A DNA stretch of 64,000 nucleotides, from NCBI RefSeq assembly GCF_011764445.1, contig NZ_BLPG01000001.1, positions 4,464,001 to 4,528,000 on the forward strand, read 5' to 3'. The notes below the pieces were generated by a model. It ran no database searches. It was not told where the DNA came from and was given only the letters and a program-made list of their open reading frames with translations. Source of the stretch: Phytohabitans rumicis. GTDB taxonomy: Bacteria > Actinomycetota > Actinomycetes > Mycobacteriales > Micromonosporaceae. The position numbers and the translations under genes were made by a program. Positions 2 to 43,081 of this stretch are shown here, piece by piece (the stretch's first letter is position 1; each line of letters begins with the position of its first letter).

Positions 2-2020
2 GGCTTCCAGGACCACGAGGGCATCGACCTGAAGGGCATCGCCCGCGCCGCGTGGAACAACTTCACCGGCGGCGACACCCAGGGCGCCTCGACGATCACC
101 CAGCAGTACGCCCGGCACGCGGCCGAACTGACCGGCATCAACTACAACCGGAAGATCCGTGAGGCGGTGCTCGCCCGCCGGTTGGAGCAGACGTACAGCA
201 AGGACGAGATCCTCGGGTTCTACCTCAACGCGATCTACTTCGGCCGGGGCTGCCACGGCATCGAGGCCGCGGCGCAGTGCTTCTTCGGCAAGTCGGCCCT
301 CACCCAGCCCGGACAGCCGGGCGCCCTCACCAAGGAAGAGGCGGCCGTCCTCGCCTCGGTGATCAAGCAGCCGGAGCCGTCGTCCACGCACAAGGGCTAC
401 GACCCGCAGCTCAACCTGGAGGCGGCCACCGAGCGGTGGAACTACACCCTCGGCAACATGGTCGAAAAGGGCTGGATGACGGCCGACGAGCGGGCGAAGG
501 CGGTCTACCCGACCAAGACGCTCAAGAAGTACGACCCGAAGACGTGCAACATCGGGTGTGGCGCCGACAAGCCGACCGGCAACGTGATCAACTACGTCCG
601 GGACGAGCTTGAGGCGATGGGGATCCCGCCGTCCGAGTGGAAGGCGAAGGGCGGATACCGGATCACCACCACGATCCTCCCGAAGGCGCAGAAGGCCGCC
701 GAGAACGCCACCCGCCGGCAGTCCAAGGAATCGCCGATGAACAAGCTTCCGGCGTACTACAAGGCGGCGCTGGTGGCGATCGACCCGTCGAACGGCCGGG
801 TGATCGCGTACTACGGCGGCGAGAACGGCACCGGGTACGACTACGCCGGCCTCAACGACGACGGCAACTCCGGTGGGCACGCGCCCGGCTCGACGTTCAA
901 GATCTACACGCTGGCGGCGGCGATGCGCGCCGAGATCCCGATGGACTCGCGCTGGGACGCGACCAAGGACCAGGACGGGGCCCGCAAGATCTCGAACGCC
1001 GGACGCGAGGGGAACGAGATCGCCTGTGGAAAGACCTGCACGCTGGAACAGTCCACGATCTCGTCGTTCAACGTGCCGTTCTACTGGATCGCCGACGGCA
1101 TCGGGCCGGACAAGGTCGTCGCGGCCGCCCGCGACGCCGGCATCCACACCATGTTCGACACCAGCAAGGGCAAGCCGCACGACCTCACCAAGAGCAAGCC
1201 GGAGGACCTGGCGCCGGAGGAGTTCGACAACGAGGTGGCGTTCGGCCAGTACCCGGTGACCGTGCTCGACCACGCGAACGGCGTGGCCACGCTCGCCAAC
1301 CGGGGCGCCTACAACAAGGCCCACTTCATCCGGTCGGTGGAGAAGCGCGACCCGGCGACCGGCAAGTACGTCAAGGTCGCCGGGGTCGGTGAGAAGCTCG
1401 ACCCGCAGCAGAAGTTCGTCGCGAACCAGATCGACGACATCAACTCCGTGCTACAGAAGATCCCCGGCTCGATCGACAACAAGCTCGAGGACGGCCGCCC
1501 GGCGACCGGCAAGACCGGTACCTGGGAGCTCAACCAGGAGCGCAACGCGACCGGCGACGCCTGGATGGTCGGCGCGACGCCACAGATCGCGTCCGCGGTC
1601 TGGGTCGGCACCGAGGGCAAACGACGAGCCATCAAGGAGCCCGGCGGCTCAAAGAACATGAGCGGCTCCGGCACGCCCGCCGCCATCTGGGAAAAGTTCA
1701 TGGACGAGGCGCACAAGGCCCTCAACTACGAGATCAAGCGGTTCGAGGACCGGAAGAACACCGGCGACCCGGACAGCCCGTACCCGAACGGCCAGTCGCC
1801 CCCTCCGCCGACGACGGGTCCGGACGAGAACCTGCTGTGCCGGCAGTTCCCGTTCCTGCCGCAGTGTGACCGGGACGGCAACGACGACAACAACGGCAAC
1901 GGCAACGGGAATGGCAACAACAACAACGGCAACCTGCCGACGACCCCGTCGCCCGGCACCGGTGGCGGCGGGGGCGGCGTGATCGTCATACCCACGCCGA
2001 CGACCCGGGCCCGAGAGTGA
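2..2020 (+). CDS. Class A penicillin-binding protein (transglycosylase/transpeptidase), 5' truncated by the window edge
   Basis: Bifunctional peptidoglycan synthase; the visible part is 672 residues and its start lies before base 1. The open frame begins inside the GT51 glycosyltransferase domain, with the QGASTITQQ motif near base 86. The penicillin-binding transpeptidase domain follows, with all three active-site motifs: STFK (catalytic Ser, about base 892), SSFN (SxN type, about base 1063) and KTGT (about base 1510). The C-terminus is a low-complexity tail rich in Pro, Asn and Gly (about bases 1790-2000), common in actinobacterial class A PBPs. It should be membrane anchored with an extracytoplasmic catalytic part; the N-terminal membrane segment is outside the window. 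The next gene starts 61 bases downstream on the same strand. Confidence 0.93.
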   Translation, partial: GFQDHEGIDLKGIARAAWNNFTGGDTQGASTITQQYARHAAELTGINYNRKIREAVLARRLEQTYSKDEILGFYLNAIYFGRGCHGIEAAAQCFFGKSALTQPGQPGALTKEEAAVLASVIKQPEPSSTHKGYDPQLNLEAATERWNYTLGNMVEKGWMTADERAKAVYPTKTLKKYDPKTCNIGCGADKPTGNVINYVRDELEAMGIPPSEWKAKGGYRITTTILPKAQKAAENATRRQSKESPMNKLPAYYKAALVAIDPSNGRVIAYYGGENGTGYDYAGLNDDGNSGGHAPGSTFKIYTLAAAMRAEIPMDSRWDATKDQDGARKISNAGREGNEIACGKTCTLEQSTISSFNVPFYWIADGIGPDKVVAAARDAGIHTMFDTSKGKPHDLTKSKPEDLAPEEFDNEVAFGQYPVTVLDHANGVATLANRGAYNKAHFIRSVEKRDPATGKYVKVAGVGEKLDPQQKFVANQIDDINSVLQKIPGSIDNKLEDGRPATGKTGTWELNQERNATGDAWMVGATPQIASAVWVGTEGKRRAIKEPGGSKNMSGSGTPAAIWEKFMDEAHKALNYEIKRFEDRKNTGDPDSPYPNGQSPPPPTTGPDENLLCRQFPFLPQCDRDGNDDNNGNGNGNGNNNNGNLPTTPSPGTGGGGGGVIVIPTPTTRARE

Positions 2021-2081
2021 TAAGTGCCAAATCGGCACCGGGCCCCGCAGGCCCGGTGCCGATGCGGCAAGATGCCATTTC

Positions 2082-3821
2082 ATGAGCGTACGGTCGGCCG
2101 ACATCGACGGTCCTGAACGTGTGGACCATCCGGCACAGTCGGATGCCTTCGTCCGCGGCCTCTCCGAAGCGATCGGTGGGCCGATCGGTGAGCACGCCAC
2201 CGGCGCCGACCGGCCGCAGCGGCAGTGGGGCGGTCGGTTCTGGACCGCGACCCGCATCGTCATCGCGCTGACCTGTCTCACCCTGGCCCTGCACTGGGTG
2301 CAAAAGTCGCCCTGCCGCGACGGCGCCTGGGCGGACCATGTCCAGTACACCAAGTTCTGCTACACCGACGTGCTGGCGCTGTACTACGCCGAAGGGCTCA
2401 ACGAGGGCAAGGTGCCCTACCGCGATCACCCGGTGGAATACCCGGTGCTGACCGGCTACTTCATGGGCGCCCTCGGCCTGCCGGTGCACGCCCTCGGCCA
2501 GAGCCGACCCGAGCTCAACCAGGCGCTCTGGTTCTACGACGCCAACGCGCTCGTGCTGAGCGCGCTCGCCGTCGCGACCGTCGGGATGATCCTCGGCCTG
2601 CGCCGACGACGACCCTGGGACGCGGCGATGTTCGCGCTGTCCCCCGCGCTCCTCGTCACCGCGACCGTCAACTGGGACTTTCTCGCCATCGGCCTGTTCG
2701 CGTTCGGCCTGTACGCCTGGGCGAAACGACGACCCGTGGCGGCCGGCATCCTGATCGGCCTCGCCGGAGCGGCGAAGATGTGGCCACTGTTCATCCTCGG
2801 GCCGCTGCTCGTCCTCGGCCTCCGGTCGGGACGGATCAAACATGCGGTCATCGCGACCGTTACCGCCCTCGTCTCCCTCGTCCTGGTCAACCTGCCGGTC
2901 GCGATCCCGTACCGGGAAAGCTGGGACCGCTTCTTCGAGCTCAACACCGAGCGCCCGATCGACTGGGGCACCTTCTGGTACGTCGGGCGCTACCTGGACG
3001 GCAAGTGGAACACGGGCGCACCCGGCGACGAGGGGCCGTTCCAGTGGCTGAGCAACCACGTCGACCCGCAGCTCAACTACCTGACGTACGGCCTGTTCGG
3101 CCTGGCCTGCCTGGCGATCGCGGGACTGGCGCTCTTCGCGCCGCGCCGGCCACGGCTGTCCGCACTGGCATTCCTCGTCGTCGCGGCCTTCCTCATCTTC
3201 AGCAAGGTCTGGTCCCAGCAGTACGTGCTGTGGCTGCTCCCGCTCGCCGTACTGGCCCGGCCGCGGTGGGGTGCCTTCCTCGCCTGGCAGGTGGCCGAGG
3301 TCCTCTACTTCGTGTCGTTCTACGGCGAGCTGCTGGGCGCCTCGGGTAAGCAGGTATTTCCCGAGGGCGTCTTCGTGCTGGCCGCCACGCTCCGGCTCGT
3401 CACCGTGGCCGTCCTATGTGGATTCGTCGTCCGCGACATCCTGAAGCCGGAGCGCGACCCGGTCCGCCAGACGTACGAGGACGACCCGGACGGCGGCGTC
3501 TACGACGGCGCCGAGGACGCACCATGGCTGGCGCGATGGCGCAACCGCCGCGCCGAACTCCCCACCTCCCCACCCCCACCCCGGCCTAACCGCCTCCGGC
3601 AGTACCACGTCGGAGGCCCGCGTCCCGCGAGGCCGGCGTCCCGCGAGGCCGGCGTCCGGCGGGTCCGCGTCCGGCGGGGCCCGCGTCCCCGGCGGCACCA
3701 CGTTGGAGGGCTGCGTCCGGCGGGCCTGCGTCCGGCGGGCGGCGCCGGAGGCCCGCGTCCGGCGGCGGCTGCGTCGATCAAGGACTTTTCCGTCGATCAA
3801 GGGCGAACGGTCGTGCTTTGA
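2082..3821 (+). CDS. GT87-type integral membrane glycosyltransferase
   Basis: 579-residue polytopic membrane protein of the GT87/DUF2029 (polyprenyl-phosphate mannosyltransferase-like) type. Many hydrophobic segments run from about residue 45 to 450, with an early loop containing the RDHPVEYP motif typical of the family (about base 2420). The last 90 or so residues are a Pro/Arg/Gly-rich tail encoded by GC-rich degenerate repeats. The stop codon lies in the spacer of a large inverted repeat (3776-3870), so the native C-terminus may have been altered by that element. ATG 2082 is chosen as the first in-frame start after the PBP gene. The exact sugar donor and acceptor cannot be read from sequence. 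Confidence 0.82.
   Translation: MSVRSADIDGPERVDHPAQSDAFVRGLSEAIGGPIGEHATGADRPQRQWGGRFWTATRIVIALTCLTLALHWVQKSPCRDGAWADHVQYTKFCYTDVLALYYAEGLNEGKVPYRDHPVEYPVLTGYFMGALGLPVHALGQSRPELNQALWFYDANALVLSALAVATVGMILGLRRRRPWDAAMFALSPALLVTATVNWDFLAIGLFAFGLYAWAKRRPVAAGILIGLAGAAKMWPLFILGPLLVLGLRSGRIKHAVIATVTALVSLVLVNLPVAIPYRESWDRFFELNTERPIDWGTFWYVGRYLDGKWNTGAPGDEGPFQWLSNHVDPQLNYLTYGLFGLACLAIAGLALFAPRRPRLSALAFLVVAAFLIFSKVWSQQYVLWLLPLAVLARPRWGAFLAWQVAEVLYFVSFYGELLGASGKQVFPEGVFVLAATLRLVTVAVLCGFVVRDILKPERDPVRQTYEDDPDGGVYDGAEDAPWLARWRNRRAELPTSPPPPRPNRLRQYHVGGPRPARPASREAGVRRVRVRRGPRPRRHHVGGLRPAGLRPAGGAGGPRPAAAASIKDFSVDQGRTVVL
3615..3775. repeat. GC-rich degenerate tandem repeats at the 3' end of the GT87 gene
   Basis: The sequence iterates a unit close to GGCCCGCGTCCGGCGG, about 15 bases long with variable spacing, roughly eight to ten times. 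It lies within the final coding part of the GT87 gene and yields its low-complexity tail. It directly abuts the inverted repeat at 3776-3870. Confidence 0.6.
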
Positions 3822-4132: not shown

Positions 4133-6223
4133 TCAGAGGTGGAAGACGATGGTGTTGCCGACGACTTCGCGCTGGATGCCCAGGGCGTCGACGGGCATGT
4201 CCACGGCGGCCTGCCACGGGGTGTCGACCAGTTGGTCGCGTAGCAGCACCACCGTCTTGACGCCCAACTCGCGCAGGTAGTCGACGCTCGCCTGGTCGGG
4301 GAAGGTTTGCGTGATCTCCCGCGTCTCGGCCTGCCCGGTCGGGGTGAAGCCGCTGCCGCCGTTGACCACCGGTTGGAAGCGGGTGGTCGACCAGAGCATG
4401 ACGTTTTGGTCGATCTTGAGGGTGCTCGGCAGGACGAGGATCGGGCCCGGGTCGACCCGCATGACCTCGGGTTGCTGGGGGACGACCGGGTGCGGGGTGG
4501 TGTTGAGGCCCTCGACCAGCACCAGGACCAGCGGCAGGAGGGTGGCCAGGCGGAGCAGCGCGCCGGGCCGTGGGGGCACCCGGGTCGCCGTGATGTCGCC
4601 GACCCGCCGGACGAACGCGCTTACCGCTCCGGCCGCGAGGATGCCGAGCAGGAGCGTGGTCCAGAGCATGAGGCGGCCCGGCGTACGCAGGCCGTCCCAG
4701 CCGGGCAGGTGCTCGAAGAGCGGAAGGTAGGTGTAGCGGCCGCCGAAGAACCGCGGGCCCATGGCGAGGATGCCGCTGGCCAGTACGCCGACGAGCAGCA
4801 GGATCCGGTGGCGCACCTTCCAGATCGAGAAGAACAGGCCGGCGATGGCGAGGCCGTACAGCACGAAGCCGGGCAGCAGCGTCATCTCGGGCGCCCAGGG
4901 CAGCCCTTCGCGGGCCTGCTCGTGTAGGCCGCCCCAGATGCGCGACTCCGCCGGCGCGATGAAGAACCCGCTCGCCGGTGGCGAGTAGGCGCGCAGGGCG
5001 TCGACCGTACGCTCCGCCTCCGGGTGCAGGTGTGCCACGTCGAAGTACGCGAGGGAGAGCAGCACTCCGGTCGCGGCAAAGAGCAGGCCGCCGACCAGGT
5101 CGGTGGCCAGCAGCAGCGCTCCGAACGGCCGCCGTACCGGCCTGCGCCGCACCTTGCCCACGTACCAGGTGACCATCGAGACGAGCGCGATCAGCCCCAG
5201 GACGTACGCGAAGGGCAGGCCGATGCCGAAGCCGAGGCTGATCTGCCAGGCCGCGACCGCCCACCCGGCCAGCGCCCAGCCCGGTTGGCGGCGGTCCGGG
5301 CGGTAGCCGTCGCGAAGGGACCAGCCGTGCCCGCGGGCGAGCATGGCCAACGCCAGGGGGATGCCGCCGTTGGACACGATGTGCAGGTGCCCGGCCTGGG
5401 AGAGCAGCCAGGGCGCGTAGGTGTAGGCGGCAGCGGCGACGACCGCTCCGGTGCGGCCCGCGCCGAGCTGGCGGACCAGCGCGTACGCCCCGAGGGTGGC
5501 CAGCGCGTGCGCCAGCACGAACATGATGTTGTAGCGGACGACCGCCGCCACCGGGCCGTCGCCGATCATGCCGGCCGGCGCGTAGCCGAGCAGGGTGTCG
5601 GAGAACGCGAAGCTGAGCCGCTCGGGGAAGAACGTGTTGGAGTTCCACAGCTGGGCCGGGTCACTGATCAGGATGTGCCCCGACCAGGCCATCTGCCACG
5701 CCTGGAGGGTCGGGTCCCAGATGTCCTGCGGCAGCGTGTGCTGTGGATAGCGCAGCGTCGGCCAGGTCATGAGCACGGCGAGCAGCAGGGAGCCCGCGAT
5801 GGCGAGCGTCCACTCGTGGATCAGGAACCGCCCGATCGCCCGGCCGACCCGCCGGCGCCGGGTGGGCGGCCGCTCCGGCTCGGGGGCGAACGCCTCCCAA
5901 CGCTCGGGCGCCGCCGCCTTCGGCTTGCGCTCGTCGGCCTTGGTGTCGTCGGACTTTGTGTCAACAACGGCCGTGTCGTCGCCCGTGGCATCGACGACCA
6001 CGGTGTCGGCCTTGGTATCGACGACGACCGCGGTGTCGGCCTTGGTGTCCACGACTGCCGTGTCGTCGCTCTTGGTATCAACGACCGCGGTGTCGTCGCC
6101 ATTGGCGTCCATGACCGCGGTGTCGTCGGCACCGGTGTCAACGACCGCCGTGTCGTCGGCCTGCACGCTCGACTCCGGAACCGTCGGGTCTTCCTTGACG
6201 ACCTGCGGCTGCTCCGTACTCAT
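4133..6223 (-). CDS. Polytopic membrane protein with an acidic tandem-repeat N-terminus (glycosyltransferase-like)
   Basis: 696 residues. The first 110 or so form a cytoplasmic-looking, highly acidic extension of about seven copies of a 9-11 residue unit close to DDTAVVDTKS. A basic stretch with RRRR follows, then a large multi-pass membrane domain (about residue 135 onward) resembling membrane-bound GT-C-type glycosyltransferases, with WDP and SNTFFPE sequences in the first long loop. Only a general GT-C-like fold is suggested, by hydrophobicity pattern. ATG 6223 is preceded by the endonuclease IV stop 13 bases upstream, so the two are probably cotranscribed. Confidence 0.7.
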   Translation of the reverse strand: MSTEQPQVVKEDPTVPESSVQADDTAVVDTGADDTAVMDANGDDTAVVDTKSDDTAVVDTKADTAVVVDTKADTVVVDATGDDTAVVDTKSDDTKADERKPKAAAPERWEAFAPEPERPPTRRRRVGRAIGRFLIHEWTLAIAGSLLLAVLMTWPTLRYPQHTLPQDIWDPTLQAWQMAWSGHILISDPAQLWNSNTFFPERLSFAFSDTLLGYAPAGMIGDGPVAAVVRYNIMFVLAHALATLGAYALVRQLGAGRTGAVVAAAAYTYAPWLLSQAGHLHIVSNGGIPLALAMLARGHGWSLRDGYRPDRRQPGWALAGWAVAAWQISLGFGIGLPFAYVLGLIALVSMVTWYVGKVRRRPVRRPFGALLLATDLVGGLLFAATGVLLSLAYFDVAHLHPEAERTVDALRAYSPPASGFFIAPAESRIWGGLHEQAREGLPWAPEMTLLPGFVLYGLAIAGLFFSIWKVRHRILLLVGVLASGILAMGPRFFGGRYTYLPLFEHLPGWDGLRTPGRLMLWTTLLLGILAAGAVSAFVRRVGDITATRVPPRPGALLRLATLLPLVLVLVEGLNTTPHPVVPQQPEVMRVDPGPILVLPSTLKIDQNVMLWSTTRFQPVVNGGSGFTPTGQAETREITQTFPDQASVDYLRELGVKTVVLLRDQLVDTPWQAAVDMPVDALGIQREVVGNTIVFHL

Positions 6224-6235
6224 CGGTCATGGCCC

Positions 6236-7011
6236 CTATCGGCCGGCCCGGTCACGCAGGAACGCGATGTCGGCGGCCTGGCCCTCGACGCCGCCCGGGG
6301 TTTCGACCACGACAGGAGCCCCGGCGGCTCGTACGACGGCGACCACCAGATTGGGGTCGATCATCCCCTTGCCCAGGTTGTCGTGGCGGTCCCGGCCGGA
6401 GTCGAACCCGTCCTTGGAGTCGTTGGCGTGGATCAGGTCGATGCGGCCGGTGATCGCCTTGATCCGGTCGACGGCGTCGAGCAGGTCTTCCCCGCCGGCG
6501 TGCGCGTGGCAGGTGTCGAGGCAGAAGCCCGGCTCGAACTCGCCGATCGCGTCCCACAACCGGGCCAGCGCGTCGAACCGGCGGGCACAGGCGTTGTCGC
6601 CCCCGCGGTGTTTTCGATCAGCACCGGGAGCGGGAAGCCGCCCGACTTCGCCGCGTACTCGAATGCCTTGCGCCAGTTGTCGAAGCCGATGGCGACGTCT
6701 TCACCCTTTTCGACGTGTCCACCATGGACGATCAACCCCTTGGCGCCGACGGCGGCCGCGCCCTGGGCGTGGCTCATCAGCAGCTTGCGGCTGGGGATGC
6801 GGATGCGGTTGTTGAGCGTCGCCACATTGATGCGGTACGGCGCGTGGATATAGATGTCGATCTCGGACGCGAGCAGCGCCTCGGCGTCGTCGCGCGGGGC
6901 CGGGTCCTTCCACGCCTGCGGGTCGGTGAGGAAGAACTGCACGGTCTCGGCGTCGCGGGCGGTCGCGGCGCCCAGCGGGTCGGTCGAGTCGACGTGGGCT
7001 CCGATACGCAT
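6236..7011 (-). CDS. nfo: Endonuclease IV (AP endonuclease), frameshifted
   Basis: Zinc-dependent apurinic/apyrimidinic endonuclease of base excision repair (TIM-barrel, AP endonuclease family 2). The start ATG 7011 gives [10 protein letters not shown]. Family motifs follow: [50 protein letters not shown]. The frame changes after ENTAG: a 5-C run at 6600-6604 (plus strand) lacks one base. Restoring it gives a continuous 258-residue protein of normal family length, so all catalytic His/Asp/Glu motifs are present but split over two frames. This could be a sequencing error or a true pseudogene; the intact motifs on both sides favour error. Confidence 0.85.
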
Positions 7012-7164
7012 GGAGGCGAGCCTACGTCTTAGGTCCGACACCGGCGCGAGGGACGTAGCCCGGAGAACAACATCTGGGTCGGTACGTGACAAATCACCCG
7101 TCACCGGCGACTCGCCCGATTCGTTAGCCCGATAGATCCAAGCCGCCGACCTGGGAGATGGTGA

Positions 7165-7944
7165 ATGCCGCCGCTGGCCCGACATCGTGCCGCCGCTACA
7201 GCGGTTGCCGCCGTTTTCGCCGCCGCGCCGCTGCTGACCGCCACCGCGGCCCAGGCCGAGCCGCTGGAGAGCGGCAAGGAAGTGGTGTTCAGCGGCGACC
7301 GTGGGCTGCTGGGGGTCTCTTGCGAGGCCAACCCGAGCGCGTCCACGGTGACCATCCCGGCGGAGACCACGCTGCGTGTGGTCAACCGGACCGGCTACCG
7401 GGCGAAGCTGCTCATCGACGGCGCCGCACAGGGCGAGATCGAGAACGGTGGCGCCGCGCCGGTCGTGTTCCACCGCGGGCCGGTCACGCTCGGGCTCAAG
7501 CCGAGCTGCATGCTCGCCGACGAGGCGGCGGTACGCGTCGAGGTGGTCGCGGCACCGCGTACGGGGGCGCCGGGGACCAAGCCGGGCACGAGCGCACCGG
7601 GCCGGCCGGCGGGCGGTACGCGTACCCAACGGGAAGAGCAACCGCAGGCGGCGGTGTCGGCCGCGCCGGACGCCAGCCCCACGGCGGCCGAGGTCGGCCC
7701 CGAACAGGCGATCCCTGCGGACGACGGTGGCGACCCGGCGGCGGCCGTGGATACCGTGGATGAAACAGCAGGCACCGGCACGGAAGGGGCGGCCGCCGAG
7801 GCGCTGTCTTCGGTCCAGCCGGTGCGGGAAAGCGGACCAATCGGACTGCTTGCACTTATCGCCACAGTCTGCGTGGTTGGTGTGCTAGCGGGAGCAATCC
7901 GGGCTATTATCGCTCAACGTGCAACCCGGACGGGTGTCGCGTAA
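7165..7944 (+). CDS. Secreted, C-terminally membrane-anchored protein of unknown function
   Basis: 259 residues with three parts. An N-terminal signal peptide (about residues 1-31) ends in an AxA-type site, TAAQA. A compact extracytoplasmic domain (about 32-135) contains two cysteines that could pair, followed by a Pro/Ala/Glu-rich disordered spacer. Near residues 226-248 there is one transmembrane segment and a basic tail. The pattern fits a surface protein tethered by a C-terminal helix. ATG 7165 is supported by GGGAG eight bases upstream. I do not recognise the family. Confidence 0.65.
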   Translation: MPPLARHRAAATAVAAVFAAAPLLTATAAQAEPLESGKEVVFSGDRGLLGVSCEANPSASTVTIPAETTLRVVNRTGYRAKLLIDGAAQGEIENGGAAPVVFHRGPVTLGLKPSCMLADEAAVRVEVVAAPRTGAPGTKPGTSAPGRPAGGTRTQREEQPQAAVSAAPDASPTAAEVGPEQAIPADDGGDPAAAVDTVDETAGTGTEGAAAEALSSVQPVRESGPIGLLALIATVCVVGVLAGAIRAIIAQRATRTGVA

Positions 7945-7966
7945 TATACAAGTAAACACACAGGCT

Positions 7967-8051
7967 CCGCGGGGCGCCTTCTATCCAACCTCGTCGGTGT
8001 GGTCGTTCCTCCCCAGGTCCCACCCAAAGAAGAGGATAGGGCGCCCCGCGG
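7967..8051. terminator. Large stem-loop downstream of the anchored protein / upstream of rpsF
   Basis: CCGCGGGGCGCC (from 7967) pairs perfectly with GGCGCCCCGCGG (ending 8051), and the stem extends into TATCC/GGATA with a two-base bulge. The loop is about 47 bases. It could terminate the upstream gene or form part of the rpsF operon leader. There is no U-tract. Confidence 0.4.
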
Positions 8052-8097
8052 CTCTCTATGCCGGGCCCGCCCGGTACTCTTGTTCGGTTCGCTCGTT

Positions 8098-8118
8098 GCC
8101 GTGGGCCTATCCCACGGC
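8098..8118 (+). promoter_or_regulatory. Perfect 8-bp hairpin in the rpsF leader
   Basis: GCCGTGGG and CCCACGGC flank a five-base loop, CCTAT. It sits about 80 bases before the rpsF start in the presumed 5' untranslated region, upstream of a second hairpin that covers the ribosome binding site. Confidence 0.4.
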
Positions 8119-8143
8119 TTCACTTATGCGAACAGACGCACGA

Positions 8144-8185
8144 CCTCCTGCCACGGATGGACCGTGGCCACTAGCCCAGAGGAGG
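8144..8185 (+). promoter_or_regulatory. Candidate ribosomal-protein autoregulatory hairpin sequestering the rpsF ribosome binding site
   Basis: CCTCCT (8144-8149) can pair with AGGAGG (8180-8185), the Shine-Dalgarno sequence of rpsF. An inner hairpin, CCACGG-ATGGA-CCGTGG (8151-8167), is stacked inside, with an asymmetric bulge on the 3' side. Leaders that bind the S6:S18 complex and repress rpsF translation are known from several bacterial groups. The placement and the sequestered ribosome binding site fit that mechanism; specific binding residues were not verified. Confidence 0.5.
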
Positions 8186-8195
8186 TGAGCAAGTC

Positions 8196-8486
8196 TTGCG
8201 TCATTACGAGATCATGGTGATCCTCGATCCAAGCCTTGAGGAGCGCACCGTCGCCCCGTCGCTGGACACGTATCTGAACGTGATCCGCACCGCGGGTGGC
8301 TCGGTGGAAAAGCTCGACGTCTGGGGTCGCCGGCGCCTGCAATTCGAGATCAACAAGAAGGCCGAGGGTATCTACGCGGTCATCGATCTGCAGGCATCCC
8401 CCGATGCGGTCGCCGAGCTGGATCGTCAGCTCCGGCTGAACGAGTCCGTTCTGCGGACCAAGGTCATCCGGCCGGACGTCCGCTGA
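8196..8486 (+). CDS. rpsF: 30S ribosomal protein S6
   Basis: 96 residues, opening [12 protein letters not shown], a standard S6 N-terminus, and containing the [13 protein letters not shown] region. S6 pairs with S18 on the platform of the small subunit. The start is TTG 8196, with AGGAGG (8180-8185) ten bases upstream; no in-frame ATG would give the full S6 fold. It is the first gene of the rpsF-ssb-rpsR-rplI operon. Confidence 0.97.
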
Positions 8487-38463: not shown

Positions 38464-38523
38464 GCACCGGAGTGTGAACCCTCCAGGGCGTTCGTGGTGG
38501 TCAAATAGCTGACAGTTTCGCCG

Positions 38524-38638
38524 TAGGGCGTGTCTGGCGGATCTTTGTGGGGCTGCGGCGGGTCCAGACGACGACCGGCGGCACCGGACGCCGCCTGGAC
38601 CTCGCCTCGCACCCACAAGATCCACCAGACACGCCCTA
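38524..38638. mobile_element. 115-bp palindromic MITE-like element
   Basis: The terminal arms TAGGGCGTGTCTGGCGGATC... (38524-38551) and ...GATCCACCAGACACGCCCTA (38612-38638) are inverted repeats with two or three differences. A second inner pair, GTCCAG.../...CTGGAC (38562-38600), extends the dyad to the centre, so almost the whole element folds on itself. It contains no coding sequence. The outermost TAG of the right arm, read on the minus strand, is the stop codon of the EndoQ-UvrD gene. Confidence 0.7.
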
Positions 38639-41600
38639 CAACAGCCGAAGCTGGCGGTCCTTCGGCTTGCGCGGGCCGGCGTCGCCGAGCCGCTCGAAGA
38701 GGCCGGCGTCGATCGCGTCCAGGAACTGTGTCGGCCGGCAGTCACGCTCCGTGCCGAATCGGGTACGGCGTGCCGCGTGGCTCACGTACAGGCGATCCTG
38801 GGCCCGGGTGAGGCCGACGAAGAAGAGCCGGCGCTCCTCGGCGAGCTCGTCGTCCGTGGCCGGCTTGCCCGGGAACCGCAGCGGGAGCAGCCCGTCCTCG
38901 CAGCCGACCAGGAAGACGACCGGAAACTCCAGGCCCTTGGCGGCGTGCAGGGTGAGCAGGGTGACCGCCTCGGCCCGCGGGTCGAGCGCGTCGACCTCGG
39001 CCCCGGTCGCCAGTTGGGAGAGGAAGAGCGGCAGGTCGTCGCCGCACCGCTGGGCGAGCGGGGTCAGTACCTCCACGGCGGCCCACACGTCTTCGGGGGT
39101 GACGGTCGGGGCCGCGTCCAGCGTCGGCGCGGTGAACCGCTGCGCCAGCACCTGGCCGGCCAGGCGTACCCGAGCGGCCAGTGAACCGCCCAGCCCGTCG
39201 GCGTGCCGCAGCTCCCGGGCGATCGCGCCGACGCCCGGGCGGTCGCGGAGCCGGTTGTGCGACCGCTTCTGCACCGGGATGCCCGCGCGGGAAAGCGCGT
39301 CGACGATCGCGGCGGCCTGTGCGTCGGTGCGGTAGAGCACCGCGACGTCGGAGAACGACACGGTCGAGGACCGCCCGTCGATCCGCCCCGAGTCGAGGGA
39401 GCGGTGGGACACGCCGCCGACCAGATCGTCGACCGTACGCCGGACGAAGTCGGCCTCGTCGGCGGCGGACCCCGCGGCGTACAGGCCGACCAGGGCCGCC
39501 TCCGGGTCGAGCCGGGCCGGGTCGAGGCGCCGGCCCCGCACCAGCGTCGACGGCGCGATCGCCTGCACCGCGGTCGCCACGATCGGCGCGGCGGAGCGGT
39601 AGTTGCGGGTCAGCCGGACCAGCCGGGCGTCGGTGAAGTCCTGCGAGAAGCGCATGAAGTACGTCACGTCCGCGCCGCGGAACGAGTAGATCGCCTGGTC
39701 CGGGTCGCCGATCGCGCACAGGTTGCCGTCCGGCGGGCTGAGCAGGCGCAGCAACTCGTACTGGACGGCGTCCACGTCCTGGTACTCGTCCACGAAGATC
39801 CACCGCCACCGGTCCCGGTAGCGCTCGACCAGCTCGGGGTCGTCGCGCAGCAGCGCCACCGGCAGCTCGACGAGCTCGTCGAGGTCGACGAGGTTCTGCT
39901 GGCGCAGCAGCTTGACGTACGCGTCCCGGTCCTCGCCGGCCTCGGTCTTGGCCTCCGCGCGCTGGGCGTCGTCGGCGATCCCGAAGCCGTCCGCCAGGCC
40001 GGCGGCCGCCGCGTGGTCGCGCAGGATCGACAGGCCGAGCGAGTGGAACGTGGCGACCGTGACGTCCTCGGCGACGGGCCCGAGGAGTCCGTCGAGCCGT
40101 TCGCGCAGCTCTTCGGCCGCCCGCCGGGTGAAGGTGATCGCCAGGCAGTGCTCGGGGTAGACGTTGAGCTCCGCGCACAGGTACGCGATCCGGTGCGTCA
40201 GCGTGCGCGTCTTGCCGGTGCCCGGACCGGCGACGATCAGCAGCGGGCCTCCTGGCGCCGACGCGGCCACCCGCTGCAGCGCGTCCAGCCGGTCCAGCAG
40301 GCCGGTGCCGACCTCCTCCATCCCGGACAGCATCGGCTCGAACGGCTCGTGCGGGGACGGCGGCGGGGGAATGGGCGGCGCCGCTTTCGCGGCGGGACGC
40401 CGGGCTTCGACCTTCTTCTTCGGCGCCGACTCCGCGGGGCGTCGCTGCGCCGGCACGGGTACGTCGAAAAGCGCGTCCGCCTGGTGACCGTGGCCCCCGC
40501 GGGGCAGCTCGCCGGGCTGGAAGACGGTAATGACGCCGTACTCCCCGTCGTACCCCGGAAGGCGCCGCACCTGACCGCGGCGAAGGCGCCCGACGGCCTC
40601 GGCGAGCAGTTCGCCGCCGGCCTGGCCGATGTCGGCCAGCGGCGTGCGGGTGAGGATCTCCAGCTCCGGGCCGAGCGCCGCGACCAGCGTGTTGACGTGG
40701 CCGTCGACGGTCTTGGACCGCGGCCCGACGCCGTGGATCTCGCCGACGATCTGCGGCAGCGACAGCAGATGGGTGACCTGCTTGGCGCCGGCGCGCGGCT
40801 CCTCGCGGTCGGCGAGGTCTTCCACCCGGCTGAGCACGCCCACGGTCAGCGGTTTTCCGCACTCGGGGCAGCGGCCGCCGGCGGCGCGGGTCTGGTCGGG
40901 CTGCCAGTTGACGCCGCAGGCGCGGTGGCCGTCGGCGTGATACTTGCCCTCCTCCGGGAAGAACTCGATGGTGCCGTGCAGCCCGTCGCCGGTGCGCAGC
41001 GCCTCGCGGATCGCGTAGTAGTCCAGCGGCGCGGTGAGCACGGTCGCCTCGCGCGCGAGGGCCGGCGGCGAGTGCGCGTCCGAGTTGGACACCAGCTGGT
41101 AGCGGTCCAGGCTGGACACCCGCCCGTTCATCTCCGGGTCGGAGGAGAGCCCGGTCTCCACGGCGAAGATGTGGTCGGCCAGGTCCGCGTAGCAGTCGGC
41201 GATCGCGTCGAAGCCCGACTTCGAGCCCAGCGCGGAGAACCAGGGCGTCCAGATGTGTGCCGGTACGAGGTATCCGTCCGGACTGGCCTCCAGCGTGATT
41301 TCCAGCAGGTCGCGCGAGTCGAGCCCGAGGATGGGCCGGCCGTCCGCGCCGAGGTTGCCGATCCGGCCCAGCGCGGTGTTGAAGCGGGCCACCGCGTCGA
41401 GGTCCGGCAGGTAGATGAGATGGTGCACCTTGCGGGTACGGTCGTCGCGCTTGTAGATCGTGGAGATCTCCACGCTGAGCATGAACCGGACCGGGTTGGC
41501 CTCGGCGGCGCTGGCCAGCCGGGGCGGAAGCTTGCGGGCGATGTCGCGCTCGTCCTCGGGGCTGAGCCGGTAGAGGCCCGGCTCGGCGGGGTGCAGCGTC

Positions 41601-41818
41601 TCGCGCAGGTGGTCGTACCAGGCGGGGTGGGTGAAGTCGCCGGTGCCCAGTACGCTCACGCCCTTGCGCCGGGCCCACCAGGCGAGGTTGGGCATGTTCA
41701 GGTCACGGCTGCAGGCGCGGGAGTACTTGGAGTGGATGTGCAGATCCGCGACGTACGGTTCGCCGGTCGAGCTGCCCTGAGGTGCAACGCTGAACGGAGG
41801 CACGCCGCATAGTGCCAT
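38636..41818 (-). CDS. Fusion of an EndoQ-type PHP endonuclease with a UvrD/Rep helicase
   Basis: 1060 residues. Residues about 20-420 form a PHP-superfamily nuclease of the endonuclease Q (TIGR00375/YqxK) type: DLHIHSKYS (His27, His29), GTGDFTHP, SNSDAHS and a zinc-knuckle region CGVNW...CPECGK. EndoQ nicks DNA 5' of deaminated bases. A Pro/Lys-rich linker (about 465-510) leads to a full superfamily 1A helicase: AGPGTGKTRT (I), TFTRRAAEEL (Ia), FVDEYQDVD (II), GDPDQAIYSFRG (III), LTRNYRS (IV), TLHAAKGLEF (V), FVGLTRAQDRLYV (VI). ATG 41818 has AAGG five bases upstream; GTG 41824 is an alternative. The stop is supplied by the adjoining palindromic element. Confidence 0.9.
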   Translation of the reverse strand: MALCGVPPFSVAPQGSSTGEPYVADLHIHSKYSRACSRDLNMPNLAWWARRKGVSVLGTGDFTHPAWYDHLRETLHPAEPGLYRLSPEDERDIARKLPPRLASAAEANPVRFMLSVEISTIYKRDDRTRKVHHLIYLPDLDAVARFNTALGRIGNLGADGRPILGLDSRDLLEITLEASPDGYLVPAHIWTPWFSALGSKSGFDAIADCYADLADHIFAVETGLSSDPEMNGRVSSLDRYQLVSNSDAHSPPALAREATVLTAPLDYYAIREALRTGDGLHGTIEFFPEEGKYHADGHRACGVNWQPDQTRAAGGRCPECGKPLTVGVLSRVEDLADREEPRAGAKQVTHLLSLPQIVGEIHGVGPRSKTVDGHVNTLVAALGPELEILTRTPLADIGQAGGELLAEAVGRLRRGQVRRLPGYDGEYGVITVFQPGELPRGGHGHQADALFDVPVPAQRRPAESAPKKKVEARRPAAKAAPPIPPPPSPHEPFEPMLSGMEEVGTGLLDRLDALQRVAASAPGGPLLIVAGPGTGKTRTLTHRIAYLCAELNVYPEHCLAITFTRRAAEELRERLDGLLGPVAEDVTVATFHSLGLSILRDHAAAAGLADGFGIADDAQRAEAKTEAGEDRDAYVKLLRQQNLVDLDELVELPVALLRDDPELVERYRDRWRWIFVDEYQDVDAVQYELLRLLSPPDGNLCAIGDPDQAIYSFRGADVTYFMRFSQDFTDARLVRLTRNYRSAAPIVATAVQAIAPSTLVRGRRLDPARLDPEAALVGLYAAGSAADEADFVRRTVDDLVGGVSHRSLDSGRIDGRSSTVSFSDVAVLYRTDAQAAAIVDALSRAGIPVQKRSHNRLRDRPGVGAIARELRHADGLGGSLAARVRLAGQVLAQRFTAPTLDAAPTVTPEDVWAAVEVLTPLAQRCGDDLPLFLSQLATGAEVDALDPRAEAVTLLTLHAAKGLEFPVVFLVGCEDGLLPLRFPGKPATDDELAEERRLFFVGLTRAQDRLYVSHAARRTRFGTERDCRPTQFLDAIDAGLFERLGDAGPRKPKDRQLRLL

Positions 41819-41960
41819 GCCCACCTTGGTTCAGGTGCGGCGCCACGCGCGAGCGTGAGATGCACGATGCCAACCCGCCCGACACTTTCGGCTGTTCAGC
41901 CGACCAGCACCAGCGCCTTAATGCCCCGCGCCACCGTCAGCGTGGTGCGACACTTGCGGC

Positions 41961-42638
41961 GTGGTGAGCGTGTTGGACCGGGAGATGTACTCCGAGGCGG
42001 AGGCAGCCAGGCTGCTCGGCGTCCCGCAGTCGACGCTGCACTACTGGCTCGAAGGCGGCGAACGTCGAGGGCGGAGGTACCGACCGGTGATCCGGCCGGA
42101 GCCGCGCAGGACACGCATCGTCACCTGGGCAGAGTTCGTAGAGGCGGGGTGGCTGCTGCAGTATCGCAACCGCAATGTCCCGATGGTCGAACTGCGGGCC
42201 TTCATCGACCAGTTGCGGGATCAGTTCGGCGTTCCGTATCCCCTGGCGGACCGGCGCCCACTGGTTTCTGGCCGCCAACTCGTGTTCGACGCGCAGAGCG
42301 CCGTCCAGCTCGGTGCCGAATTCTGCCTGGTATCGGTGGTCAACGGCCAACTCTTGCTCACGCCGCCGGGCCAGGCGTTCGTGGAGCGGATCGAGTGGGA
42401 CGGTGACATAGCGATCCGGTATCGGCCCGACCCCAACCCGGATTCTCCCGTGCGCATCGAGCCGGACGTGCGCTTTGGCCGGCCGGCGATCAAGGGGATC
42501 AGCACCGAGGCGATCTGGGAGCAGGCCGAGGTCGGTGAGGAAACCGACCAGATCGCGCAGGTGTACGGGCTAGACGTAGCGGACGTGCGCTGGGCGCTCG
42601 CATATGAGAACGCCAAGAGCGCAAAGCGCGCGGCGTGA
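41961..42638 (+). CDS. VapB45-like antitoxin (MerR-type HTH plus DUF433)
   Basis: 225 residues. The N-terminal HTH YSEAEAARLLGVPQSTLHYWLEG is MerR-like. The C-terminal DUF433 region reads VRFGRPAIKGISTEAIWEQAEVGE...VYGLDVADVRWALAYE. Length and order match the Mycobacterium tuberculosis VapB45 (Rv2018) type. It probably binds its own promoter and the toxin. GTG 41961 is chosen (GTG 41964 equally possible). The stop overlaps the toxin start by four bases (GTGA). Confidence 0.82.
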   Translation: MVSVLDREMYSEAEAARLLGVPQSTLHYWLEGGERRGRRYRPVIRPEPRRTRIVTWAEFVEAGWLLQYRNRNVPMVELRAFIDQLRDQFGVPYPLADRRPLVSGRQLVFDAQSAVQLGAEFCLVSVVNGQLLLTPPGQAFVERIEWDGDIAIRYRPDPNPDSPVRIEPDVRFGRPAIKGISTEAIWEQAEVGEETDQIAQVYGLDVADVRWALAYENAKSAKRAA

Positions 42639-43081
42639 GCCGGGTCAAGCCCGCAGAGGTCCGCATCTACGTCGACGCCGACATCCTCGGCGTGGGCCAC
42701 GTGTTGGCGGGCCTGCGCTCTGACATCACCTACCCGGGCGACACCGGCGCGGTCATACACAAACGCAGACGTCCATCCTGTTCGGTTACTACACCAGCGA
42801 CGCCCGACCCGATATGGATTCCGGAGGCCACCCGCCAAGGCTGGCTTATCATCACGCGTGATCGACACATCCAGGACCATCGGCAGGAGATCGCGGCTGT
42901 TCGCCAGCATGGCGCCCGGATGGTCGCGCTCTCCGGCGTGGAGGCCCGGAGCACGTTCGACCAACTCGAGGTCCTCATGTGCCAGTGGCGGTCGATCGAG
43001 CAGCTTCTGCTCAAACCAGGTCCGTTCATCTACACCGCCACGAGAACGACGCTCCGACCGGTGGATCTCGACGACCTCTAG
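42635..43081 (+). CDS. VapC45-like PIN-domain toxin
   Basis: 148 residues, PIN-like fold with early IYVDADILGVG and a second acidic stretch IITRDRHIQDH that would complete the metal site of a ribonuclease. The order, size and GTGA overlap with the DUF433 antitoxin resemble VapBC45. GTG 42635. The gene appears intact. Typical VapC targets are tRNA or rRNA; the target here is unknown. Confidence 0.8.
   Translation: MSRVKPAEVRIYVDADILGVGHVLAGLRSDITYPGDTGAVIHKRRRPSCSVTTPATPDPIWIPEATRQGWLIITRDRHIQDHRQEIAAVRQHGARMVALSGVEARSTFDQLEVLMCQWRSIEQLLLKPGPFIYTATRTTLRPVDLDDL

Follow-up and report, generated by a model that had tools for sequence, protein, structure and literature searches.

The fused gene

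The window, a stretch of 64,000 nucleotides from the actinomycete Phytohabitans rumicis (contig NZ_BLPG01000001.1, positions 4,464,001 to 4,528,000), carries on its reverse strand a gene in which an endonuclease Q (EndoQ)-type nuclease is joined to a UvrD/PcrA-type helicase in one polypeptide, as an earlier note made from the letters alone had proposed. The coding frame spans 38636..41824 including the stop and runs uninterrupted for 1062 aa from a GTG, from which residues are numbered here; the likely start is the ATG at 41818, two codons inside this longest start (residue 3), which gives 1060 aa, and three relatives (L014, L017 and L019) have an ATG at the matching position. The protein consists of an EndoQ domain (40499..41761, residues 22-442), a proline-rich linker (40307..40498, approximately residues 443-506), a superfamily 1A (SF1A) motor (38699..40306, residues 507-1042) and a C-terminal β-clamp-type motif, QLRLL (38639..38653, residues 1058-1062). 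Judged by sequence comparison, the similarity of the two halves to PfuEndoQ and PcrA is far beyond chance. The linker is predicted to be disordered, with a predicted local distance difference test (pLDDT) score below 50 at model residues 424-488, corresponding to protein residues 443-507; the predicted template modelling (pTM) score of the model is 0.51.

The nuclease half

With the whole protein as query, residues 26-434 align to PfuEndoQ at E 4.4e-41 to 2.2e-40, and with residues 20-440 as query PfuEndoQ (5zb8) is matched at E 1.7e-42. The alignment to 7k30/7k31 is a single stretch covering positions 7-415 of the 421 in the query, and the half is assigned the EndoQ fold. PHP motif 1, DLHIHS (41729..41746, residues 27-32), GTGD (residues 60-63) and SNSDAHS (residues 246-252) are all present as the earlier note quoted them. 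Its zinc cysteines hold for three positions, C303, C319 and C322, while the remaining aligned position is a histidine, H300 (40859..40927 for the set, by alignment to PfuEndoQ). This gives one His and three Cys in place of the four Cys of PfuEndoQ, and the His at the first zinc-ribbon position is identical in all 158 domains compared (57 fused, 101 other bacterial).

In excerpts of a review (PMC8307549), Glu76, His84 and His139 of PfuEndoQ are described as zinc ligands whose single changes to Ala abolish activity, and His139, Gly169 and Ser171 as residues that obstruct T and A. The five residues E76, H84, H139, G169 and S171 align to E119, H134, H190, G225 and S227 here, which are identical in 57/57 distinct fused domains; in the other domains each is found in 101/101, except the S171 position (99/101). 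From these conserved residues, the EndoQ half would be expected to nick 5' of deoxyuridine, deoxyinosine and abasic sites.

In profile searches the nuclease half has no Pfam match up to E 0.1. The NCBIfam model TIGR00375 does match it, at 135.6 bits, below the curated cut-off of 326.6. That cut-off is reached by 0/247 Desulfobacterota genomes versus 2/14 controls, a comparison in which 90 of the 150 listed Desulfobacterota rows sit in frames shorter than 875 aa, and it is likewise unreached in the sampled genomes of Actinomycetota (396), Chloroflexota (201) and Bacteroidota (198). The cut-off looks too narrow for the bacterial diversity of the family, rather than the protein looking foreign to it. 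As the nuclease half has no Pfam match and misses the cut-off, the gene would look like a plain UvrD helicase, which amounts to an annotation gap.

The helicase half

SF1A motors walk 3' to 5' on DNA, and in Rep the removal of subdomain 2B activates the monomer. Here motifs I to VI are intact between residues 533 and 1008, in agreement with the earlier note, and the half is matched by Pfam UvrD-helicase (E 1.9e-63) and UvrD_C (E 3.5e-31). PcrA is aligned at E 1.3e-81 in three stretches within residues 508-1047, and the PcrA equivalog TIGR01073 scores 371.3 bits versus a cut-off of 911.2. Among 17 motif residues compared over near-complete fusions, 16 are identical in 52/52 and R998 is kept in 47/52.

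The motor is shortened in both accessory regions. Spacing from TFH to DExx (the 1B region) is 87 aa in the window's motor versus 129-138 aa in PcrA-profile rows (10 measured of 14), and spacing from motif IV to motif V (the 2B region) is 135 aa versus 201-217 aa in 9 of the 10 PcrA-profile rows measured; a long-branch row of that set, L210, has 154 aa. Short TFH-DExx spacing is characteristic of the window's family, in which 7 rows have 70-87 aa. Motif IV-V spacing is 122-148 aa in other Actinomycetota (6 measured), and in 15 measured fusions from other phyla it is 132-157 aa in 8 and 196-206 aa in 7. By these spacings, 1B is most reduced in the window's family and 2B is short across many fusions, beyond the Actinomycetota as well.

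Clamp-type motifs

Proteins dock on the bacterial sliding clamp through short peptides close to QL[SD]LF. A motif of this type was sought in the last 14 residues of each protein in a looser form, Qxx[LIMF][FLIMY], and a stricter one. Among distinct, complete fused proteins (21 from the window's family, 32 from elsewhere), the looser form is present in 52/53 and the stricter in 48/53, compared with 83/97 and 56/97 of stand-alone EndoQ proteins and 1/510 and 0/510 of control open reading frames (ORFs). The controls are the other non-overlapping ORFs of at least 250 aa in the fetched loci, open frames rather than confirmed genes, and relatedness overstates the independence of the motif counts, though several phyla are spanned. 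The sole fused exception, L121, is frame-broken: at 4854-8311 in G057 the fusion is split over two frames, and the end of the second frame still reads QLRLI. The C-terminal end of the PcrA-like protein of the window's own genome (L002) has no motif of this type.

A second candidate site, QADALF (40466..40483, residues 448-453), lies in the linker near where a stand-alone EndoQ would end. Q-x(2,3)-[LIM]F is found in 36/57 distinct linkers versus 1.54 expected from shuffles, with the L014 linker, which came out empty, counted as a miss.

Clamp association has precedent in the literature: the C-terminal PCNA-interacting (PIP) box of archaeal EndoQ binds PCNA with a dissociation constant (KD) of 55 nM, PCNA stimulates EndoQ, and clamp motifs were already noted in bacterial EndoQ homologs (excerpts of PMC4858679); PCNA association is also reported for the P. 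abyssi COG1379 protein (excerpts of PMC3820547). What is new in the present set is that the helicase half itself terminates in a clamp-type motif, often with the older site still present in the linker. By analogy and from the motifs themselves, the fusion may bind DnaN through QLRLL, and perhaps through the linker motif too.

Distribution

A match to the fusion at E ≤ 1e-60 is found in 30/37 genomes of the window's family, counting the one from which the window comes, and in 4/24 other genomes of the same order; both halves lie in one frame in 31 of these 34 matching genomes, judged by open-frame lengths. An even sample of the Actinomycetota gave TIGR00375 matches at E ≤ 1e-5 in 8/396 genomes, of which five are frames of 1064-1165 aa, one is cut by a contig end, one stands alone (499 aa) and one is weak and partial. 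Desulfobacterota match in 160/247 genomes; at least 60 matches among the 150 rows listed, counted by eye and including the centre G453, lie in frames of at least 875 aa, and 19/19 such frames that were fetched are fusions. Bacteroidota match in 10/198 genomes, 10/10 of them in frames of 1004-1163 aa, with fusion confirmed for the centre G454 only (L115). In Chloroflexota 5/201 genomes match, with six rows: frames of 1067 and 1136 aa, one of 586 aa running into a contig end, and three short.

A further 80 named loci comprise 11 fused, 66 stand-alone (including the split pair L103) and 3 cut; as the best 80 of 586 matches to a stand-alone query, they say little about the fused share. Titles of the fused ones name Elusimicrobia, Chloroflexi/Anaerolineales, Fibrobacteres, Bacteroidota and Deltaproteobacteria/Desulfobacterales, and one just "bacterium". 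Altogether the fusion is found in six phyla, Actinomycetota counted. It is neither an artefact nor rare.

Two loci bear on the layout of the halves. In a Desulfobacterales metagenome-assembled genome (L193 2139-5596, the same locus as L103) the EndoQ and helicase halves are encoded in separate frames, with 61 nt shared between the two stop-to-stop stretches; this is either a genuine split of the gene or an error that shifted the frame. At L192, EndoQ (506-1780) is followed after a one-base gap by a 563-aa helicase (1782-3473); the closing residues are GQMRLL in the EndoQ and QMELFS in this motor. In addition, the stand-alone EndoQ loci L047 and L052 have large UvrD-type proteins with a cysteine-rich tail approximately 2.8 to 3.7 kb upstream.

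Trees and origin of the fusion

The EndoQ tree was built from 96 of the 158 rows (44/57 fused, 52/101 others). The 44 fused rows, together with L103 (halves out of frame with each other) and L031 (truncated at a contig end), fall on one side of a branch and 50 stand-alone rows on the other, with a Shimodaira-Hasegawa-like approximate likelihood ratio test (SH-aLRT) value of 96. The fused/stand-alone label changes 3 times on this tree versus a shuffled mean near 32. The two halves are inherited together. Placing L165, the EndoQ of the two-gene operon, in the fused clade lacks support but is not rejected either (approximately unbiased test, p-AU 0.192).

The helicase trees differ with the rows included. 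With all 58 rows, among them L207, which duplicates L192 under a mistaken pcrA label, the motor halves are not one group, and L180 and L192 fall on the PcrA side. A 54-row tree dropped the duplicate L207 and the long-branch rows L206, L210 and L211. Here the fused and split rows alone still require two changes, and the data do not reject a single-group tree (p-AU 0.709). Once L192 is counted with them, 43 rows separate from 11 others at SH-aLRT 100, the 11 comparison motors being relatives found through the PcrA profile or taken from the window's genome. A history in which operon partners came first, followed by a single fusion, wide spread and a rare later split, would agree with these trees, although its direction can only be inferred because they are unrooted.

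Neighbouring genes and the end of the frame

In the window the fusion is flanked by a LuxR-type regulator and a DUF433/PIN_10 pair. The DUF433 gene overlaps the PIN_10-like gene (41961-43081), is divergent from the fusion, and looks like part of a toxin-antitoxin pair. Six relatives examined have the fusion gene after a metallophosphoesterase-family gene, and several have a gene without a Pfam match after the fusion. No replication genes are among the neighbours scanned in the window's family. At four other loci (L109, L110, L111 and L221), dnaN ends approximately 0.7 to 1.6 kb upstream of the fusion, with gyrB beyond it.

At the final codon and stop codon of the fusion lies a short inverted repeat resembling a miniature inverted-repeat transposable element (38523..38639, no strand assigned), with arms of 56 nt that are 75% complementary and 5 nt apart. 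It supplies the TAG stop and leaves the protein end QLRLL in place. The repeat was not seen at the matching place in five same-genus relatives (L009-L013); it is an insertion and no part of the enzyme. Elsewhere in the window, an endonuclease IV-like gene (6260-7005, reverse strand) lies in two parts in different frames, reflecting either a real break or a sequencing error.

Proposed mechanism

The protein is probably, on a modest balance of the evidence, a clamp-tethered repair enzyme that incises and then displaces. DnaN would first be bound by the C-terminal QLRLL, and perhaps also by the linker motif. The EndoQ half would then flip out a uracil, hypoxanthine or abasic residue and cut the phosphodiester bond 5' of the lesion, so that the lesion strand is left with a 3'-OH and a 5'-phosphate, the products described for EndoQ in excerpts of PMC4357722. 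As EndoQ leaves the lesion on the downstream 5' end, the helicase would do the displacement step: the SF1A motor would load on the intact strand at the nick and walk 3' to 5' into the downstream duplex, lifting off the lesion strand, 5' end first, in front of a clamp-bound polymerase extending the 3'-OH. Host enzymes would finally remove the flap and seal the nick. A fuller proposal, held tentatively and with slightly less than an even chance, is that of a one-polypeptide excision pathway in which clamp-held incision is coupled in cis to directional displacement, founded once when a clamp-binding EndoQ was joined to an SF1A motor that also binds the clamp and forms a clade of its own, and retained in at least six phyla. 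The earlier note's single-protein machine that nicks and unwinds is partly supported by these sequence features.

Partnership of the two activities is favoured by L192, where the EndoQ and the adjacent helicase each end in a clamp-type motif and the helicase groups with the fused motors in the 54-row tree. The position of dnaN and gyrB upstream of the fusion at L109, L110, L111 and L221 also speaks for the proposal. In comparison to Endonuclease Q (PDB 5zb8/7k30; TIGR00375; COG1379), the fold, the catalytic and lesion-pocket residues, the position of the putative zinc ribbon and a clamp-type C-terminal motif are shared; the fused helicase at whose end that motif lies, the His where PfuEndoQ has the first zinc-ribbon Cys and the score below the TIGR00375 cut-off are different. 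The motor shares motifs I to VI and the RecA-like core with PcrA/UvrD/Rep helicases (PDB 1pjr, 2is6, 1uaa), and differs in its short 1B and 2B, its clamp-type end, its N-terminal EndoQ and a score well under the PcrA equivalog cut-off. Like the archaeal EndoQ-PCNA repair described in excerpts of PMC4858679, the enzyme would make a lesion-specific nick while held by a sliding clamp, with the bacterial clamp in place of PCNA and a built-in motor as the differences.

Several observations weigh against this proposal. The motor halves do not form one group in the 58-row helicase tree, the linker motif of the window's family exceeds the customary pentapeptide by one residue, and QLRLL does not end in the F that is usual for such motifs. 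The short 1B and 2B regions suggest that the motor might translocate without unwinding. Nearby dnaN is uncommon, at 3/10 fused versus 1/70 other loci in one set and 1/20 fused versus 0/20 stand-alone upstream stretches in a second (one of the latter 20 only 1.7 kb long). The gene looks dispensable, as 7/37 genomes of the window's family have no match at E ≤ 1e-60, and the same genome holds four UDG-family matches, one EndoV match (covering 112/198 positions) and one full Nfo (C1:2524967-2525791).

Some of these features would fit replication-coupled surveillance, in which the enzyme, bound to the clamp, travels with the fork and takes out misincorporated deoxyuridine or deoxyinosine monophosphate (dUMP/dIMP), the motor serving mainly as a translocase or roadblock clearer. 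Clamp-type motifs at two places, dnaN-gyrB upstream at four loci and the short 1B/2B of the window's motor all suit it, and EndoQ is mentioned as possibly part of a replication complex in excerpts of PMC8307549. The dnaN neighbourhood is nevertheless true of few loci, the scanned neighbours in the window's family include zero replication genes, and this alternative is considered unlikely. It is still less likely that the two activities were joined for co-expression only, with the motor a generic accessory UvrD that has no role in EndoQ repair. The long, putatively disordered linker and the existence of both fused and unfused versions in bacteria would be expected in that case; in the 54-row tree, however, the fused motors sit with the helicase encoded beside a stand-alone EndoQ in one operon and apart from PcrA-profile relatives (the 58-row tree did not give this grouping), and a single clade holds the EndoQ domains of fused proteins from several phyla.

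Least probable, if only slightly below the last, is an anti-phage nuclease-helicase attacking phage DNA with uracil or other odd bases: possible antiviral roles of Bacillus EndoQ are mentioned in excerpts of PMC8307549, and GajB models pick up the motor half (best E 2.9e-70), which is expected of any motor of UvrD type. Against this reading, no PADLOC model hits the EndoQ half at E ≤ 0.001, a search of 72,556 plasmid and 50,697 phage records gave no match to that half at E ≤ 1e-5, and the gene is matched in most genomes of the window's family, several with common neighbours. Gabija GajB (PDB 8iud, 8sm3) is likewise a UvrD-type motor working with a nuclease, whereas the nuclease here is PHP-type and fused, and GajA was not seen beside the fusion among the nearest scanned genes (LuxR-type, DUF433, PIN_10 and metallophosphoesterase).

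Implications for bacterial EndoQ

No description of a fusion of EndoQ with a helicase was found in the portions of the open-licence literature on EndoQ that were available, and the protein belongs to a branch of bacterial EndoQ that is widespread and seemingly undescribed. That literature, in the same portions, places bacterial EndoQ in "some limited groups" or "only a few bacterial genuses"; the family is commoner in bacteria than these phrases suggest. EndoQ cuts but does not take the deaminated base off the strand, and the fusion names a candidate motor for that later step, with the clamp-type motifs as a candidate platform, so that the downstream half of the EndoQ pathway becomes testable in one protein. 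If the one-polypeptide pathway is real, it would be a glycosylase-independent pathway for deaminated bases with enzyme-driven displacement, and would explain the persistence of bacterial EndoQ beside UDG and EndoV.

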